Shown one piece after another: positions 15,598-62,906 of a stretch of 64,000 nucleotides of DNA. Both the position numbers and the translations under genes were made by a program. How positions within the stretch are numbered: the stretch's first letter is position 1; every line of letters begins with the position of its first letter. Under the pieces are notes generated by a model. The model ran no database searches and was not told where the DNA came from. It saw nothing but the letters and a program-made list of their open reading frames with translations. Source of the stretch: Brevundimonas subvibrioides (GTDB taxonomy: Bacteria > Pseudomonadota > Alphaproteobacteria > Caulobacterales > Caulobacteraceae); NCBI GenBank assembly GCA_002280475.1, contig NCEB01000009.1, positions 1 through 64,000 of the forward strand, given 5' to 3'.

Positions 15598-16815
15598 ATG
15601 CCGCGTCCGATACGTTTCAACCTGTCCGCCTGGTCTCTGCGCGAGTGGGGCCTGACCCTGCTGGCGCTGGGCGTGCTGGCGGCCGTCCTGGCGATCGCGA
15701 GTCACGGCCGCGCGACGGGCGTGACCGGCGATGTGCGCGGCGTGCGCTTCGGCGGTGACGCGGCGCGTACCCGGGTCGTCATCGATCTGGACCGCTCGGC
15801 GCGCGGCGAGGTCGTCGACGCGGGCGGGAGCGGCCAGGTTGTCCTGACCCTGTCGGGTGTCGGAGCCGGTCGTGGTGTCGACGGGCAGGGCAGGGGCCTG
15901 GTCAGGGACTGGCGGGTCAGCGCGTCCGGCACGGCCTCGCGCGTCCAACTGGGCCTGTCACGCACCGCGCGGATCGAGCGGCGTTTCCTGCTGCCGCCGG
16001 GCGACGGCGTGTCTCACTATCGCTATGTCATCGATATCGCCTCGACCGGCGGCGCGGTCACGGCCCCGCCTCGCCAGCCCCCCCGCGCGACGCCGCGCCG
16101 CGCCGAACGGCCCCTGGTCGTGATCGACGCCGGCCACGGCGGCCGTGATCCCGGCGCGACCGGGCAGGAACGATCCGAGAGCGAGATCACCCTGGCCGCC
16201 GCCCTGGCGCTGAGGGACGAGTTGAACCGCACCGGTCGCTACCGGGTCATGCTGACACGCGACAGCAACGTCTATGTTGGCCTGAACCAGAGGGTCCGGA
16301 TCGCGCGTCAGGCGGACGCGGATCTGTTCATCTCGCTGCATGCCGATGCGGGCGCCGATCCGGCCACGCGGGGCGCCAGCGTCTATACCTTGTCCGAACA
16401 GGGGGCGTCGCGCGCCGTGCGCGAGGTCACGCGGTCCGAGGACTGGCACCGCGACCTGCACCTGCCCGGTCGCGATCCGTCGGTCGACCGTATCCTGCTG
16501 GACATGACCCAGAGGGCGACCCAGAACCGCTCGGCCCAGTTCGCGCGGGTGCTGCTGACCCATCTGGAGGCGGCCGACCATCCGCTGCTGCGCCGGAGCC
16601 ATCGCGACGCCGGTCTGGCGGTGCTGCTGGCCCCCGACGTGCCCGCCGTGCTGCTGGAAATGGGCTTCATCACCAATCCGGACGACGAGCGCGCCCTGGC
16701 CGACAGCCGCCGACGTCAGCGCCTGATGCGCGCGGTGGCGGAAGGCATCGACCGCTATTTCAGCCAGCCGGCCGCCGGAACGATGATCGCCGGAATGCCC
16801 GGCAGGGCCGGCTGA
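15598..16815 (+). CDS. N-acetylmuramoyl-L-alanine amidase (AmiC-type)
   Basis: 405 residues. N-terminal signal or anchor (WGLTLLALGVLAAVLAIASH), an AMIN-like beta domain (VRFGGDAARTRVVIDLDRSA, IERRFLLPPGDG), then an Amidase_3 catalytic domain from ~residue 170. Zinc-site motifs are VVIDAGHGGRDPGATG, the glutamate in ERSESEITLAAALALRDEL, and LFISLHADAGADP; the catalytic glutamate is in VLLEMGFITNPDDE. It cleaves the glycan-peptide amide bond during septal splitting. PBP1A lies 81 bases downstream on the same strand. Confidence 0.95.
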   Translation: MPRPIRFNLSAWSLREWGLTLLALGVLAAVLAIASHGRATGVTGDVRGVRFGGDAARTRVVIDLDRSARGEVVDAGGSGQVVLTLSGVGAGRGVDGQGRGLVRDWRVSASGTASRVQLGLSRTARIERRFLLPPGDGVSHYRYVIDIASTGGAVTAPPRQPPRATPRRAERPLVVIDAGHGGRDPGATGQERSESEITLAAALALRDELNRTGRYRVMLTRDSNVYVGLNQRVRIARQADADLFISLHADAGADPATRGASVYTLSEQGASRAVREVTRSEDWHRDLHLPGRDPSVDRILLDMTQRATQNRSAQFARVLLTHLEAADHPLLRRSHRDAGLAVLLAPDVPAVLLEMGFITNPDDERALADSRRRQRLMRAVAEGIDRYFSQPAAGTMIAGMPGRAG

Positions 16816-16896
16816 CCCGACAGACCGTTTCCGGCCTTTCCGGCGGACCCGGCGCGGGCTAAACCCAACACGGGCGTCAGTCGGAGAGTCCCTGAA

Positions 16897-19314
16897 GTGA
16901 AGGTTGCCGAGCGTTGGTTCGTGATGGCGGGGGTGGCCCTGCTGGGCGCGATCGCGCTCGCCGGGCTGCTGGTGGCCATCTATGCGGCGTGGCTGTTGCA
17001 CGACCTGCCCGATGCGTCCGAACTGGCCGACTATCGTCCTCCGACCGCGACGCGGGTCTATGCCGGCGACGGCACCCTGATCGGCGAGTTCTCGGACGAG
17101 CGGCGCATCTATGTGCCCTATGAGCAGATCCCGACCAGCCTGGTGCAGGCGTTTCTGGCCGCCGAGGATCGCAGCTTCTTCCAGCACGGCGGCATCGACG
17201 TGTCGGGCCTGGGCCGTGCCATGTTCAAGAACGTCTTCAACGTCCTGACCGGGCGTCGGCTCGAGGGCGGATCGACGATCACCCAGCAGGTGGCCAAGAA
17301 CGTCCTGCTGACCAATGAATCGACCATCGGCCGCAAGCTGAAGGAAGCCATCCTGTCCAGCCGGCTGGAGGCGACCCTGTCCAAGGAGCAGATTCTCGAA
17401 CTCTATTTGAACGAGATCTTCCTGGGGTATCGCAGCTACGGCGTGGCGTCTGCGGCGTTCAACTATTTCGGCAAATCGCTTCAGGACCTGACGCCCGAAG
17501 AGGCGGCGTTTCTGGCGGCTCTACCCAAGGGTCCGAACAACTATCACCCCAAGCGCCACCCTGAAGCGGCCAAGGGTCGCCGCGACTGGGTCCTGGGTGA
17601 GATGCTGCAGAATCGGTTCCTGACCCAGGCGGCCTATCAGACGGCGGTCTCCGCGCCGCTCACGACGCGCGAGGCCCCGCGCCGGGCCGAGTATCAGGAC
17701 GCCGATTTCTTCGTCGAGGAGGCGCGCCGCATCGCGCGGGCGAACCCCGACTTCGGCGAGCAGCTGAACGCCGGTGGCTTCTACATGCGCACGACGCTCG
17801 ATCCGTCGCTGCAGACAACGGCGCGCGACGCCCTGATGCGCGGGCTGGAGAACTATGACCGTCGTCATGGCTGGCGGGGTGCCTGGGGGACGACGGACTT
17901 CGCGCCGGGCTGGCAGGCGGTCGCTTTGCGCGAACAGGCCCCGCCGGAACGCCGCGAATGGCGCGCCGCCGCCGTCGAGAGCGTCTCGGGCAACACCGTT
18001 CGTGTCCGCACGGCCCGCGACGACGCGACCGGCGCCCTGATCGCCGCCGACGTCGCCTGGGCCAACGCCAACCGGCCGCTCCAGCGTGGCGACCTGATCT
18101 TCGTGGAGCCGAGGAACGGCCAGTTCGCGCTGAAGCAGGTGCCCGCCGTGAACGGGGCCCTGGTCGCCATCGAACCCCAGTCCGGGCGGGTGCTGGCCAT
18201 GGTGGGGGGGTATTCCTTCGCCCTGTCGAGCTTCAACCGGGCGACCCAGGCGTTTCGTCAGCCCGGTTCGGCTTTCAAGCCCTTCGTCTATGCCGCCGCG
18301 CTGGAAGGGGACTTTACCCCGGCCTCGATCGTCATCGACGGGCCGATCAGCTTCGCAGGCGGGCCGGGCGGGCGCCGCTGGACGCCCGAGAATTACAGTC
18401 GGCGCTACTATGGCCCCCAGACGCTGAGACGCGGGCTGGAGCTGTCGCGCAACGTCATGACGGTGCGCCTGGCCAATTCGATCGGCATGGACAAGGTCGT
18501 CGACCTGTCGCGGCGCATGGGCGTGGCCGAGAATCTGCAGCCAAACCTGTCGGTGTCGCTGGGGGCGGGCGAGGTGTCGGCCTTCGACATGACGGCCGCC
18601 TACGCCGCCTTCGTCAACGGCGGACGGCGGATCGATCCCTATCTGATCGAATATGTCCAGGACCGCGACGGCGAGACCATCTACCGGGCCGATCAGCGTC
18701 GGTGCCGGGATTGCGGTCGAGCCTTCACCGGCCAGGCCTCGCCCATGCTGGAACCGCGCGGCACCCAGGTGATCGACCCGATCACCGCCTATCAGATCAG
18801 CTCGATGCTGGAGGGCGTGGTTCAGCGCGGCACGGCGGCCAGCGCGCGGGGTCTGGGCGACTGGGTCGGCGGCAAGACCGGCACGACCAACGAATATCGC
18901 TCAGCCTGGTTCGTCGGCTTCACCACGGACATCGTGGTGGGCATCTACATCGGCTTCGACGACAATCGTCCCCTGGGATATGGAGAGACGGGGACGACAG
19001 CCGCCGTGCCGGTCTTCATCGACTTCATGGAGGACGCCCTCAGAGAGCGGCCGGCGCGGCCGTTCGTGCGTCCGCGCGGGGCCGTGTTCCGCACCGTGCG
19101 TGGGATCGAGGAGGCCTTCCGCCCCGGCACGGAGCGTCGCCGCGAGGAGGAGCAGGAGGATCGGGGTCCCGTGACCCCGACCGGTCCGCAGAACTACAAC
19201 GACGTGATCCGGCGCGAGCAGGAAGCCGCCGCGGCCGCCGCCGCCGCGCCTCCGCCACAGGCGCCGCCGCCGCGGAAGCAGGAACCGGCGGACGATCTGG
19301 ACGGGTTGTTCTAA
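16897..19314 (+). CDS. mrcA: Penicillin-binding protein 1A, bifunctional
   Basis: 805 residues. A cytoplasmic/TM start (AGVALLGAIALAGLLVAIYA) is followed by a GT51 glycosyltransferase domain with AAEDRSFFQHGGID, GGSTITQQVAKNVLLTNE and LYLNEIFLGYRSYGVASAA. An OB-like linker and the transpeptidase domain follow, with the SxxK serine in GSAFKPFVYAAALEG, SRN in LELSRNVMTVRLAN and KTGTTNEYRSAWFVGF. The end is a Glu/Arg-rich then Ala/Pro-rich tail. It polymerises and cross-links peptidoglycan. Some annotators use ponA. Confidence 0.96.
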   Translation: MKVAERWFVMAGVALLGAIALAGLLVAIYAAWLLHDLPDASELADYRPPTATRVYAGDGTLIGEFSDERRIYVPYEQIPTSLVQAFLAAEDRSFFQHGGIDVSGLGRAMFKNVFNVLTGRRLEGGSTITQQVAKNVLLTNESTIGRKLKEAILSSRLEATLSKEQILELYLNEIFLGYRSYGVASAAFNYFGKSLQDLTPEEAAFLAALPKGPNNYHPKRHPEAAKGRRDWVLGEMLQNRFLTQAAYQTAVSAPLTTREAPRRAEYQDADFFVEEARRIARANPDFGEQLNAGGFYMRTTLDPSLQTTARDALMRGLENYDRRHGWRGAWGTTDFAPGWQAVALREQAPPERREWRAAAVESVSGNTVRVRTARDDATGALIAADVAWANANRPLQRGDLIFVEPRNGQFALKQVPAVNGALVAIEPQSGRVLAMVGGYSFALSSFNRATQAFRQPGSAFKPFVYAAALEGDFTPASIVIDGPISFAGGPGGRRWTPENYSRRYYGPQTLRRGLELSRNVMTVRLANSIGMDKVVDLSRRMGVAENLQPNLSVSLGAGEVSAFDMTAAYAAFVNGGRRIDPYLIEYVQDRDGETIYRADQRRCRDCGRAFTGQASPMLEPRGTQVIDPITAYQISSMLEGVVQRGTAASARGLGDWVGGKTGTTNEYRSAWFVGFTTDIVVGIYIGFDDNRPLGYGETGTTAAVPVFIDFMEDALRERPARPFVRPRGAVFRTVRGIEEAFRPGTERRREEEQEDRGPVTPTGPQNYNDVIRREQEAAAAAAAAPPPQAPPPRKQEPADDLDGLF

Positions 19315-27386: not shown

Positions 27387-28048
27387 TCAGGCCGGCTCGG
27401 CCTCGAGCCGCTTGTCCAGATAGGCCCCGACGCGGGTCTCGACCGCGCCGATGTGGTCCTGCCAGAAGTGGGTCGCGCCTTCTTCCAGCTCGTAGTCGAT
27501 GACGATGCCCTTCTGGGTGCGCAGCTTGTTGACCACGCGCTCGACCTCGACCGGCGGGACGATGGTGTCGGCCGTGCCGTGCAGGAACAGGCCGGACGCC
27601 GGGCAGGGGGCCAGGAAGCTGAAGTCGTACATAAGTCGTACATGTTGGACGGCGGCGAGACCGAGATGAAGCCGTCGGTCTCGGGCCGGCGCATCAACAG
27701 CTGCATGCCGATGTAGGCGCCGAACTGATAGCCGGCGACCCAGGTCTGGGTCGCGGCGGGGTTGTTGGACTGGAGCCAGTCCAGGGCCGTGGCCGCGTCG
27801 GCCAGTTCGCCGATGCCGGAGTCGAACTCGCCCTGGGACTTGCCGACGCCGCGCGAATTGTAGCGCAGGGTGGCGAAGCCGCGCTTCTGGAACAGCTGAT
27901 AGAGGGTCACGGCGACCGGATTGTTCATGTGCCCACCCGCCTTGGGGTGGGGATGCAGGATCAGGGCGATGGGGGCGTTGGCGCGTTTGCCGGGGGAATA
28001 GCGGCCCTCGATGCGGCCGGAGGCGCCGGGCAGGATGACTTCAGGCAT
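27387..28048 (-). pseudogene. Alpha/beta hydrolase-fold protein, frameshifted by an 11-base tandem duplication
   Basis: The first ~136 codons (from 28048) read PEVILPGASGRIEGRYSPGK, LILHPHPKAGGHMNNPVAV, RYNSRGVGKSQGEFDSGIGE and WVAGYQFGAYIGMQLLMRRP. After SPPSNMYD the frame is lost, because ATGTACGACTT is repeated in tandem (27622-27643). The rest of the protein (FSFLAPCPASGLFLHGTADT, then ATHFWQDHIGA) continues in another frame to 27387. Removing one 11-base copy restores a ~216-residue protein of the YfhR-like family. The usual nucleophile serine of the GxSxG motif is Gln here (GYQFG), so activity as a hydrolase is doubtful even if intact. Confidence 0.85.
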
Positions 28049-28204: not shown

Positions 28205-28675
28205 ATGCGCCTGTCGACCAAGGGACGATACGCCGTGATGGCGATGGCCGACCTGGCCCGGAACGGGCGAGGCGAGGCCGGTCAGGCGCGCGCCGTGTCC
28301 CTGGCCGAGATCGCCACGCGGCAGGAAATTTCATTGAGTTACCTCGAACAGCTGTTCGCGCGGCTGAGAAAAAGCGGCCTGGTTCAGAGCGTCCGCGGTC
28401 CGGGCGGTGGCTATCGCCTGGCCAAGACGGCGGGCGAGACCGTGGTGTCCGAGATCGTCCTGGCGGTCGATGAGCCGATCCGCGCGACGCGGTGCGCGGC
28501 CCATTCCTCGCCGCGCGGCTGTATGATGGCCGGCGAACGCTGCATCACCCACAATCTTTGGGAGGACCTGGGCGACGAGATCCATCGCTATCTGTCCAGC
28601 GTGTCGCTGGAGGACGTGGTTCTGAACCGGACGCGGCGGGCGCCGACCGTCGCCGATGTCGGGGTGGCGGCATGA
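28205..28675 (+). CDS. iscR: Rrf2-family iron-sulfur regulator, IscR type
   Basis: 156 residues. The N-terminal winged helix is MRLSTKGRYAVMAMADLA, with ISLSYLEQLFARLRKSGLVQ and SVRGPGGGYRLAK. Three cysteines in ATRCAAHSSPRGCMMAGERC followed by ITH match the Cys3-His cluster ligands of IscR. It should repress the suf genes when its cluster is loaded. The gene opens the suf operon and overlaps the downstream cysteine desulfurase by four bases. A SufR name is also used in some annotations. Confidence 0.92.
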   Translation: MRLSTKGRYAVMAMADLARNGRGEAGQARAVSLAEIATRQEISLSYLEQLFARLRKSGLVQSVRGPGGGYRLAKTAGETVVSEIVLAVDEPIRATRCAAHSSPRGCMMAGERCITHNLWEDLGDEIHRYLSSVSLEDVVLNRTRRAPTVADVGVAA

Positions 28676-29811
28676 GCCCGGTCTATCTGGACTACAACGC
28701 CTCGGCCCTGGTGCGGCCGGAGGTGCAGGCGGCGATGGCCGAGGCCCTGGCCGACAACGGCAATCCGTCGGCGGTCCATGCGGCCGGACGGCGGGCGCGG
28801 GCGCGGGTCGAGACGGCGCGGGCGCGGGTGGCCGATCTGGTCGGGGCGGATGCGCAGTCCGTGGTGTTTTCCTCAGGCGGGACGGAGTCCAATGCCCAGG
28901 CGATCGCCAGCGCGATCGCGGCGGGGTGCGAACGGCTGATCGTCTGCGCCTCCGAGCATCCTTGCGTCGCTGAGGCGGCCAAGGCGTCGGGCAAGCCGGT
29001 CAAGGTGCTGCCGGTCGATGGGCGCGGCGTGATCGACCTGGGCAAGCTGTCCAAGCTGCTGGCCGCGCCCGGCAAGGCGGTTGTCGCGATCCATCATGCC
29101 AACAACGAGAGCGGCGTGATCCAGCCGATCCGCGAGGCCGCGACCCTGGTGCGCGAGGCCGGCGGCTGGCTGCACGTCGACGCCATCCAGTCGGCGGGCA
29201 AGATTCCGGTGTCGATCGCGGGGCTGAAGGCCGATACCCTGACGCTTTCGGCGCACAAGCTGGGCGGACCGCAGGGCGTGGGCGCGCTGGTGCTGGGCGA
29301 AGGCCGGTCGGCGGTGCAGATCGTGCGGGGCGCCGGGCAGGAGCGGGGCCTGAGGGCCGGCACGGAGAACGTGCCGGGCATCCACGGCTTCGGCGTCGCG
29401 GCGGACTGCGCAGCGCGGGATCTGCCGACGGCGGAGGCCCATGCCGTCTGGCGCGATGCGGCCGAGGCGGCGGTCGAGAAGGCCGGGGCGACGATTATCG
29501 GCAAGGGCGCGCCGCGTCTGCCCAACACCCTGTTCCTGTCCGTGCCGGACTGGGAGAGCCCGCAGGCCCTGATCGTGCTGGATCTGGAGGGCGTCATGGT
29601 CTCGGCCGGCAGCGCCTGTTCGTCCGGCAAGACCAAGCCGAGCCGGACGATCGTGGCCATGGGGCGGATGGATCTGGCGACCGGAGGTGTGCGCGTCTCG
29701 GGCGGCTGGAGCACGACGAAAGACGATTGGTCGCGCTTCTCTGCGGCGTGGACGACCGCATATGCCCGGTACCGCGCCCGTCAGTCCGCGCGTGTAAAGG
29801 AAACCGCCTAA
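28672..29811 (+). CDS. Cysteine desulfurase, NifS/IscS type
   Basis: 379 residues. A fold-type I PLP enzyme that takes sulfur from cysteine. It begins SPVYLDYNASALVRPEVQAA; the PLP lysine is in LTLSAHKLGGPQGVGAL and the active cysteine in VSAGSACSSGKTKPS, on the longer loop of group I desulfurases. A second desulfurase of SufS type sits at the other end of the operon. The ATG overlaps the iscR stop. Confidence 0.93.
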   Translation: MSPVYLDYNASALVRPEVQAAMAEALADNGNPSAVHAAGRRARARVETARARVADLVGADAQSVVFSSGGTESNAQAIASAIAAGCERLIVCASEHPCVAEAAKASGKPVKVLPVDGRGVIDLGKLSKLLAAPGKAVVAIHHANNESGVIQPIREAATLVREAGGWLHVDAIQSAGKIPVSIAGLKADTLTLSAHKLGGPQGVGALVLGEGRSAVQIVRGAGQERGLRAGTENVPGIHGFGVAADCAARDLPTAEAHAVWRDAAEAAVEKAGATIIGKGAPRLPNTLFLSVPDWESPQALIVLDLEGVMVSAGSACSSGKTKPSRTIVAMGRMDLATGGVRVSGGWSTTKDDWSRFSAAWTTAYARYRARQSARVKETA

Positions 29812-29814
29812 GTC

Positions 29815-31277
<1,463 letters not shown>

Positions 31278-31281
<4 letters not shown>

Positions 31282-33388: not shown

Positions 33389-33398
33389 ACCGCTCAAT

Positions 33399-33526
33399 CC
33401 TCACCCGCATCGCGGGGGAGGGGGACCGCGAAGCGGTGGAGGGGGCGACCCCAGACACGGTGCTCGCGTCCGCCCCCTCCACCACCCTTCGGGCGGTCCC
33501 CCTCCCCCGTGAACGGGGGAGGAGAC
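33399..33526. repeat. Palindromic repeat pair, family B, copy 2
   Basis: Left arm 33399-33447 and right arm 33471-33526 are inverted relatives with CCCTCCCC/GGGGAGGG and GGACCGCGAAGCGGT-type stems. It fills the sufC-sufD gap. Its right end GGGGGAGGAGACG runs straight into the sufD ATG and acts as the Shine-Dalgarno sequence. Confidence 0.85.
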
Positions 33527-33527
33527 G

Positions 33528-34541
33528 ATGAGCGCCGTCGATCTGCGCGACCCTTCGACCTTCCCGTCGCGGCGGGTCGAGGCGTGGAAATACACCGACC
33601 TGGCCCGCGTGCTGCGCCAGACGCCGCCGCCGTCTCCGGCCGTCGAGATCGCGCTCGGCGGGCCGTTCGCGGACCTGGGCGGAGAGGAGATCGCCTTCGC
33701 CAATGGCCGGGCGGTCGGGGCCGACGCCTTCGTCGCCTCGGGCGAGCAGACGCTGCGGCTGAGGTTCGTATCGGACGCGACGGGCACGGGGCACGGCGCC
33801 TCGGTACGGATCGCGGTCAAGCCGGGCGCGAAGCTGACGCTGCTGGAAAGCCATGAGGGCGCGGGCGCAGGGTATGTCGCCAACTATCGGATCGATCTCG
33901 ATGTTCCGGCCGGGGCCGAGGTCACGCGGGTCGTCCTGATCGACGAGCCGGCGGACGCGATCTCGGTTTCGGTGGCGCATGTGAAGACGGCACCCGGCGC
34001 GGTCTATCGTCAGACGACGATCACGAGCGGCGCGAAGCTGCAGCGGCAGGAAACCCACCTGGCCCATGGCGGGGAGGCGACCGAGGTGACGCTGGACGGC
34101 CTCTACGCCCTGTCCGGCGAGCGCCACACCGATCTGACCAGCGTCGTGCGCCACGGCGGCCTGAACGGCCTCACCTCTCAGCTGACCAAGGGCGTCGTCC
34201 GCGACACCGCGCGCGGCGTGTTCCAGGGCAAGATCGTGGTCGAGCGCGGGGCCGATGGCACCGATGCGCGGATGGGGCACCATGCGCTCATTCTCGGCGA
34301 GCGGGCCGAGGTGGACGCGAAGCCGGAGCTGGAAATCTATGCCGACGACGTTCAGTGCGCGCACGGCAATACGGTCGGCAATCTGGACGAGAGCGCCCTG
34401 TTCTACATGCAGCAGCGCGGCATTCCGGCGGAAGAGGCGCGGGCCCTGCTGACCCAGGCGTTCCTGTTCGAGGTGATCGATCGCATCGCGCACGAAGGCG
34501 CGAGAGAGGTGGTGAGGTCATGGCTGACGGCTCGGCTGTAA
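33528..34541 (+). CDS. sufD: Fe-S cluster assembly protein SufD
   Basis: 337 residues. Paralogue of SufB and partner in the SufBCD scaffold. Motifs are SRRVEAWKYTDLARVLRQTP near the start, YALSGERHTDLTSVVRH, FQGKIVVERGADGTDARM and AKPELEIYADDVQCAHGNTV with GNLDESALFYMQQRGIP. The gene follows a palindromic repeat that supplies its ribosome-binding site, and it overlaps sufS by 22 bases. Confidence 0.96.
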   Translation: MSAVDLRDPSTFPSRRVEAWKYTDLARVLRQTPPPSPAVEIALGGPFADLGGEEIAFANGRAVGADAFVASGEQTLRLRFVSDATGTGHGASVRIAVKPGAKLTLLESHEGAGAGYVANYRIDLDVPAGAEVTRVVLIDEPADAISVSVAHVKTAPGAVYRQTTITSGAKLQRQETHLAHGGEATEVTLDGLYALSGERHTDLTSVVRHGGLNGLTSQLTKGVVRDTARGVFQGKIVVERGADGTDARMGHHALILGERAEVDAKPELEIYADDVQCAHGNTVGNLDESALFYMQQRGIPAEEARALLTQAFLFEVIDRIAHEGAREVVRSWLTARL

Positions 34542-61982: not shown

Positions 61983-62906
61983 TCAAGCCGTAATCCTGTT
62001 GCGCGTGTGCATGTTGAACCACGCCAGCGTCCGGTCCCAGGCCTGGGCGGCGGTGGTCGGGTTGTAGCGTTCCGGCGTCGCGTCATTGAAGAAGCCATGG
62101 ACCGATGCGGGCCACAGGTGACCCTCGTGCGTCACGCCGTGCCGCTCGAGCTCGGCAATCTGGGCCGGATAGGCCTCGGCCAGGCGCGTATCCAGCGCCC
62201 CGTGGTGGATCAGGATGGCGGCGCGGATGGCGGGCACCAGCTCCGGCGGCGTGGCCCCGCCGTAGAAGGGCGCGGCGGCGGCGAGCTCGGTCCCCATCAT
62301 GCCGGCGAGCAGGTTGGACTGGGCCCCGCCGAAGCAGAAGCCGGTCGCCGCGATCCGCCCGTTGCAGTCCGGCCGCGCCTTCAGCCAGCGCGCCGCCGCG
62401 ATCAGATCTTGCGTCATCTTGTTCCGGTCCAGCGAGGCGAACAACTGGCCACCCTGATAGTCGTCGCCCGGATAGCCGCCGACGCTGGTCAGGGTGTCGG
62501 GCGCGAAGGCCATGAAGTTCGCCAGGGCGAAGCGGCGCGCCACGTCCTCGGTGTGCGGGTTCAGCCCCCGGTTCTCGTGGATCACGACGACGCCGGGCAG
62601 GCGGGCGGGCTCGGCGCTGCGCGAGTCCGCGCTGAACGGCCGGACCAGATAGCCCCGGATGAAGCCATATCCGTCCGGTGACGGCACGGTGACGTAGGAG
62701 GCGCGGATGCGTTCGTCCTCGCGCGCCACCTGCTGGCCCAGCGCATAGTTGGGCATCAGGGCTTCGACGATGACCGAGGCGGTCAGGCCCGCGACGGCAT
62801 AGCGGCTGACGCCCCGGGCGAAGGCGCGGCGATCGATCTCGCCATGGATGAAGCGGGTGTAGAGGTCCACGGCTTCGGCCGGGATCTTCTTCTTGTCGTC
62901 GCTCAT
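61983..62906 (-). CDS. Dienelactone hydrolase-family protein
   Basis: 307 residues. An N-terminal RRAFARGVSRYAVAGLTASV segment resembles a twin-arginine signal or anchor. The catalytic triad is visible as Cys in GRIAATGFCFGGAQSN, Asp in LIHHGALDTRLAEAYPAQIA and His in ASVHGFFNDATPERYN. The motif VVVIHENRGLNPHTEDVARR is characteristic of this family. The natural substrate is unknown. Confidence 0.9.
   Translation of the reverse strand: MSDDKKKIPAEAVDLYTRFIHGEIDRRAFARGVSRYAVAGLTASVIVEALMPNYALGQQVAREDERIRASYVTVPSPDGYGFIRGYLVRPFSADSRSAEPARLPGVVVIHENRGLNPHTEDVARRFALANFMAFAPDTLTSVGGYPGDDYQGGQLFASLDRNKMTQDLIAAARWLKARPDCNGRIAATGFCFGGAQSNLLAGMMGTELAAAAPFYGGATPPELVPAIRAAILIHHGALDTRLAEAYPAQIAELERHGVTHEGHLWPASVHGFFNDATPERYNPTTAAQAWDRTLAWFNMHTRNRITA

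Follow-up and report, generated by a model that had tools for sequence, protein, structure and literature searches.

The stretch of Brevundimonas subvibrioides DNA analysed here, 64,000 nucleotides long and called the window throughout, is part of contig 21 of an assembly that consists of 75 contigs (3.13 Mb, 95.14% complete). Positions 27387-28048 of the window hold, on the minus strand, a gene of the alpha/beta-hydrolase fold, which starts with an ATG at 28048 and whose frame is shifted by a short tandem duplication. The 11-base unit AAGTCGTACAT is present in two identical, directly adjoining copies in direct orientation, the first at 27622-27632 and the second at 27633-27643 (no strand assigned to either). 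The upstream part of the gene (codons 1-138; 27635-28048, minus strand) matches Peptidase_S15 and Hydrolase_4, which are the Pfam families above the cut-off for the broken gene and both belong to the alpha/beta-hydrolase fold. The upstream frame has no stop at the duplication and extends out of frame as far as 27377. The downstream part, with the stop, lies in the shifted frame (27387-27632, minus strand) and is 81 residues long when counted from an ATG within the repeat, at 27632; judged by motif, it contains the acid and the histidine expected for the catalytic triad.

The unit occurs exactly twice in the window, whereas 100 shuffled versions of the window contain it 0.00 times on average. 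Tandem Repeats Finder describes positions 27622-27643 as 2.0 copies of period 11 with a 100% match, and this is the sole perfect non-triplet tandem repeat with a period of at least 10 in the window. The first-pass annotation had reported a perfect 11-base tandem that breaks the gene into two frames, and this description proves accurate. It was also right about the alpha/beta-hydrolase fold and the length of about 216 residues. The relatives carry one copy of the 11-mer and one frame of 216 residues. No near-identical second copy of the gene that could rescue the broken one was found in the genome, where the only other DNA match is a stretch of 27 bases.

The divergent neighbour of the gene encodes an Rrf2-family (IscR-like) regulator (28205-28675, plus strand; Pfam PF02082, E 3.7e-36). 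On the same strand as the regulator are the genes for a cysteine-desulfurase-like class V aminotransferase (28672-29811; PF00266, E 1.3e-55) and for a SufB-like protein of the SUF Fe-S cluster system (29815-31281; PF01458, E 1.7e-77). Farther along the suf region, a spacer of about 140 bases (33389-33530) contains GC-rich direct and inverted repeats and, by eye, looks like an intergenic repeat element.

Conservation and selection among relatives

In all 109 Brevundimonas loci read at the DNA level, the orthologue is a single intact frame of exactly 216 residues; these are the best-scoring loci, with some genomes fetched twice, and they represent 84 different proteins. A genus set of 131 genomes, one per species, gave matches to the first part of the gene in 130 genomes and to the last part in 129. 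Both parts are found in each of the 110 genomes whose completeness is 90% or more and whose contamination does not exceed 5%. The 130 matches to the first part include a weak one (43%) in G073, for which orthology is improbable. Two matches are partial: the first 61 residues are absent from G070 because of a contig end, and the two pieces of the gene lie on two contigs in G107. In wider samples, a search at E 0.001 finds the gene in 199 of 200 genomes from the order and in 270 of 289 from the class, a few of these matches being weak enough to be paralogues. The doubled 22-mer, searched for as the exact unit so that variants of it would escape, is present in the window's own genome and in none of the 130 other genomes of the genus.

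The protein is under strong constraint, with a median dN/dS of 0.095 for 300 random pairs from 90 different coding sequences. When the window copy is compared with these 90 sequences, its N-terminal part has a median pN of 0.026 and a median pS of 0.327, against 0.032 and 0.318 among the relatives. The corresponding values for the C-terminal part are 0.051 and 0.250, against 0.051 and 0.289. Judged by pN and pS in the two halves, neither relaxed selection nor further decay is seen on either side of the break, and the window copy does not have these marks of a pseudogene.

The surroundings of the gene are conserved as well. An IscR-like gene is found in the fetched flanks (up to 4 kb) of 80 out of 80 named Brevundimonas loci. 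At a distance of up to about 1.5 kb it is present in all 27 order and family loci (Brevundimonas included), in all 20 hand-picked loci and in 19 of 27 loci from the class; in the remaining eight from the class, a cysteine-desulfurase-like gene is close by. Orientation was examined for the window. Across the alphaproteobacterial loci examined, the proximity of the hydrolase-fold gene (27387-28048 in the window) to iscR and the cysteine-desulfurase-like genes (28205-31281) is conserved.

Frame breaks elsewhere in the assembly

The soundness of the assembly was examined in 789 kb of the window's genome, the window included. A reference of 1.2 Mb came from the one-contig relative G119, and 400 kb from two other one-contig relatives served as control targets. 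In an overlap-resolved frame scan against the G119 ORFs, five of 189 orthologues from the window's genome and one of 105 from the controls are split over two frames. This difference is not significant (Fisher p 0.43), and the weight of the scan rests on which genes are split and not on the counts, from which partial hits (21 own, 7 control) were left out. The five split genes are clpB, sdhA, trpS, an amidohydrolase gene and the alpha/beta-hydrolase gene of the window; sdhA encodes the flavoprotein of succinate dehydrogenase and trpS the tryptophan-tRNA ligase. The single split control gene is less similar in its protein (79-83%), shows several gaps of 1-3 bases and is probably not an assembly error. 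Alignment of the DNA brings in two more broken genes, atpG, which encodes the gamma subunit of ATP synthase, and ku; the broken genes were identified by NCBIfam and Pfam. A first frame-break scan, the 20 rows of which were mostly antisense shadow ORFs of GC-rich DNA (ten sequences judged by eye), was replaced by the one described here. The first scan also gave one pair in L203, at about 16464-17471.

When a flank identity of 85% or more is required, seven clean non-triplet indels are found in 145 orthologues of the window's genome and none in 84 controls (Fisher p 0.049); this cut-off was picked once the data had been seen. The next flank values under this cut-off are 0.84 and 0.80 for the window's genome and 0.80 for the controls. 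Lowering the cut-off to 80% gives eight own indels (nine if both the 0.84 and the 0.80 cases are added) versus one in the controls. The full set of non-triplet gaps comprises 79 own and 25 control cases, most of which have poor flanks and resemble alignment noise. Six of the seven clean indels are deletions, of 10, 62, 86, 88, 92 and 149 bases, and the seventh is the 11-base duplication. Microhomology is limited to 0-1 base at the five deletions that were realigned, a set that does not include the one in atpG.

Only one trpS was found in this genome, and the 86-base deletion splits it (L243, about 2047-2102; on contig 12, near 62050-62100). Likewise, atpG was found in one place only and is split by a deletion in L233 (contig 6, 45417-46200). 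The other clean frame-breaking deletions, which affect sdhA, clpB, the amidohydrolase gene and ku, lie at about 12160 in L232, 4356 in L228, 10600 in L198 and 10005 in L243. A second trpS or atpG was not found in this genome; as the assembly is 95% complete, a further copy of either could sit in the missing portion. Within one contig, trpS is split in three of the 130 genomes with a match (G000, G003 and G061) and atpG in four of 123 (G000, G001, G049 and G120), counts from which genomes were left out if they had just one partial match or if the pieces were spread over several contigs. The window's genome, G000, is the only one that appears in both lists. A cell in which TrpS and the gamma chain of ATP synthase are both broken is not credible, and at least some of the breaks are therefore errors. 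The assembly has been scaffolded, as indicated by a run of 46 Ns on the window's own contig 21 (L189, 6640-6685).

Perfect non-triplet tandems with a period of at least 10 were counted in the same 789 kb, the window included, and amount to five, compared with one in 800 kb of three control genomes. A class of tandem-duplication errors spread over the assembly was considered and dropped: the 17- and 20-base tandems each coincide with the end of a short open frame or come close to it, and two 10-base tandems appear by eye to lie inside continuous frames. A class of deletion errors is thus demonstrable in this assembly and a class of tandem duplications is not. Further perfect tandems are present in the genome at L206 4112-4151 (20 bases, two copies), L187 11243-11283 (17 bases, 2.4 copies) and L240 10360 (63 bases, two copies); they could be real or could have the same origin as the 11-base duplication.

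Origin of the duplication

By combining these observations, it is possible to propose how the duplication arose. It is most likely an error of the assembled consensus or of a scaffold join that the living chromosome does not share. In the organism itself the 11-mer is probably single and the protein, of 216 residues, intact. Such an error is the best explanation because it is hard to believe that a living cell carries broken trpS and atpG genes. Moreover, indels break a few per cent of the tested orthologues, and the frameshift is unique in a widespread and constrained gene, so that an error is likelier than an event. Two features expected of an artefact are found: the doubled 22-mer is confined to one genome of 131, and the same assembly breaks genes that are hardly dispensable (trpS, atpG, sdhA and clpB). 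Of the three readings offered by the first-pass annotation, sequencing error thus receives the best support, a recent inactivation keeps a small share of the probability, and a switch is unsupported.

If neighbouring pieces were joined without knowledge of the true gap between them, a single process would account for both kinds of break. An overlap of a few bases between the pieces, left unmerged, would appear as a short perfect tandem duplication. A short stretch absent at the join would result in a clean deletion without microhomology. Errors at short gaps and contig joins in draft and metagenome assemblies are alike in that clean short indels fall in the housekeeping genes of one assembly; for the window's genome, in contrast to those known errors, we infer the joining mechanism, and also that the duplication and the housekeeping-gene breaks share a cause. 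Several points count against an artefact. The remaining breaks are deletions, whereas the 11-base one is an insertion, and a second clearly artefactual tandem duplication was not found in the 789 kb examined. Splits of trpS or atpG occur in a few other assemblies of the genus and are therefore not peculiar to this one. Finally, living cells also produce short perfect tandem duplications, by replication slippage.

The main rival is a real and very recent slippage duplication of 11 bases in the sequenced strain, or in part of its population, which has inactivated the gene; it is unlikely, but by far less so than the readings that follow. Such a duplication would revert or be removed by selection. 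Short tandem duplications are a recognised class of mutation, and the perfect copies, the lack of added decay and the constraint on both halves, which is as in the relatives, are all consistent with an event of this kind. Loss of the gene, however, is strongly disfavoured by the 109 intact loci out of 109 and by the matches, a few of them weak, in 270 of 289 class genomes. The breaks of trpS and atpG in the same assembly, which are hardly real, also argue against it.

It is highly improbable that the split is tolerated, with the downstream frame starting at the ATG of the repeat and the 81-residue C-terminal piece working together with the N-terminal piece. An ATG-initiated ORF of 81 amino acids does begin at 27632, but the upstream frame runs without a stop until 27377, which excludes a restart coupled to termination. 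No Shine-Dalgarno-like sequence is evident by eye ahead of this ATG, and the break would fall inside what is presumably a single alpha/beta-hydrolase domain. A restart at the ATG within the repeat was considered and rejected.

The phase-variation-like switch of the first-pass annotation, in which slippage between one and two copies would toggle the gene, can practically be dismissed: the perfect tandem itself speaks for it, but the exact doubled unit is in 0 of the 130 other genus genomes, one intact frame is seen at 109 of 109 loci with no variation in repeat number among the relatives, two copies of an 11-mer without a longer array make a poor contingency locus, and typical phase-variable genes are surface genes, unlike this widespread and strongly constrained hydrolase-fold gene.

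An assembly error thus remains the preferred explanation, and the duplication itself is most likely not a real feature. When a perfect short tandem duplication is encountered in one draft genome, the essential genes of that assembly should be checked before a switch or a loss is called.

Residue 108 of the hydrolase-fold protein

A second lead from this gene, the loss of a presumed catalytic serine, is worth more than the duplication. Codon 108 (CAG, Gln; 27725-27727, minus strand) is at the nucleophile-elbow position and corresponds to Ser108 in the nearest solved structure, 2I3D (Atu1826 from Agrobacterium). The Brevundimonas relatives have GYQFG-A/S at the elbow, where the window has GYQFGA. 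An intact Brevundimonas orthologue (L006) is similar to 2I3D over its full length (phmmer E 7.8e-84, residues 1-214) and shares the length and fold family of the Atu1826-like alpha/beta hydrolases. PMC7034887 assigns Atu1826 to a SCOP family of its own, with Ser108 as the nucleophile. The Brevundimonas loci examined differ from Atu1826 in having Gln at this position, and the window copy is frameshifted in addition.

Residue 108 was surveyed in 183 loci, in which some genomes are represented twice and the loci from outside Brevundimonas are best-scoring or hand-chosen and not random. All 127 Brevundimonas loci have Gln there, as does the window, and none has a serine nucleophile at this position. 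The 24 loci from other Caulobacteraceae have Ser (14), Asp (8) or Gln (2), and Ser is present in 32 of 32 loci from other Alphaproteobacteria. Loci with a variant residue include the window (27725-27727), L131-L135, L167-L168, L172 and L174-L175; the remainder of the protein is highly conserved. In a tree with 88 rows, a single change is enough for Gln (in 64% of the bootstrap trees) and two are needed for Asp, which is found in two clades outside Brevundimonas. The histidine motif A-S/T-H-F-W is present in all 127 Brevundimonas loci, and the downstream part of the window's gene has ATHFW.

As the nucleophilic serine is replaced by Gln in the Brevundimonas loci examined, the sequences make it doubtful that "hydrolase" describes the activity of the protein. 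Tentatively, and with a likelihood a little short of even, the iscR/suf-linked protein of the Caulobacteraceae might be a strongly constrained pseudo-hydrolase. Its serine would have given way to Gln in Brevundimonas and a second genus, and elsewhere in the family to Asp, in the simplest case on two occasions, with the rest of the protein almost unchanged. Its conserved role next to the Fe-S assembly genes would then do without serine chemistry, perhaps across the Alphaproteobacteria. In the portions of the literature covered by the search, a Gln or Asp nucleophile in the Atu1826-like family is not mentioned, which does not by itself make the observation an unpublished one. A protein that is widespread in the Alphaproteobacteria and encoded beside Fe-S assembly genes has, in one family, lost the serine presumed to be catalytic and yet kept its constraint, so its role is amenable to direct test.

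A gene in the same place is described in Rhodobacter sphaeroides. PMC6956336 presents RSP_0444 of the isc-suf region as a putative hydrolase upstream of iscR and transcribed in the opposite direction, as is the hydrolase-fold gene of the window. The same paper gives this position as common to most Rhodobacteraceae and Rhizobiaceae and the function of RSP_0444 as being without experimental data. Judging from its position and the class-wide search, and not from the sequence of RSP_0444, the two genes are presumably orthologous. A weak likeness also exists to SglT, a type IV pili motility protein treated in PMC9108774: residues 16-140 of a 230-codon frame match NCBIfam NF058544 with 65.3 bits, far under the family cut-off of 300 bits.
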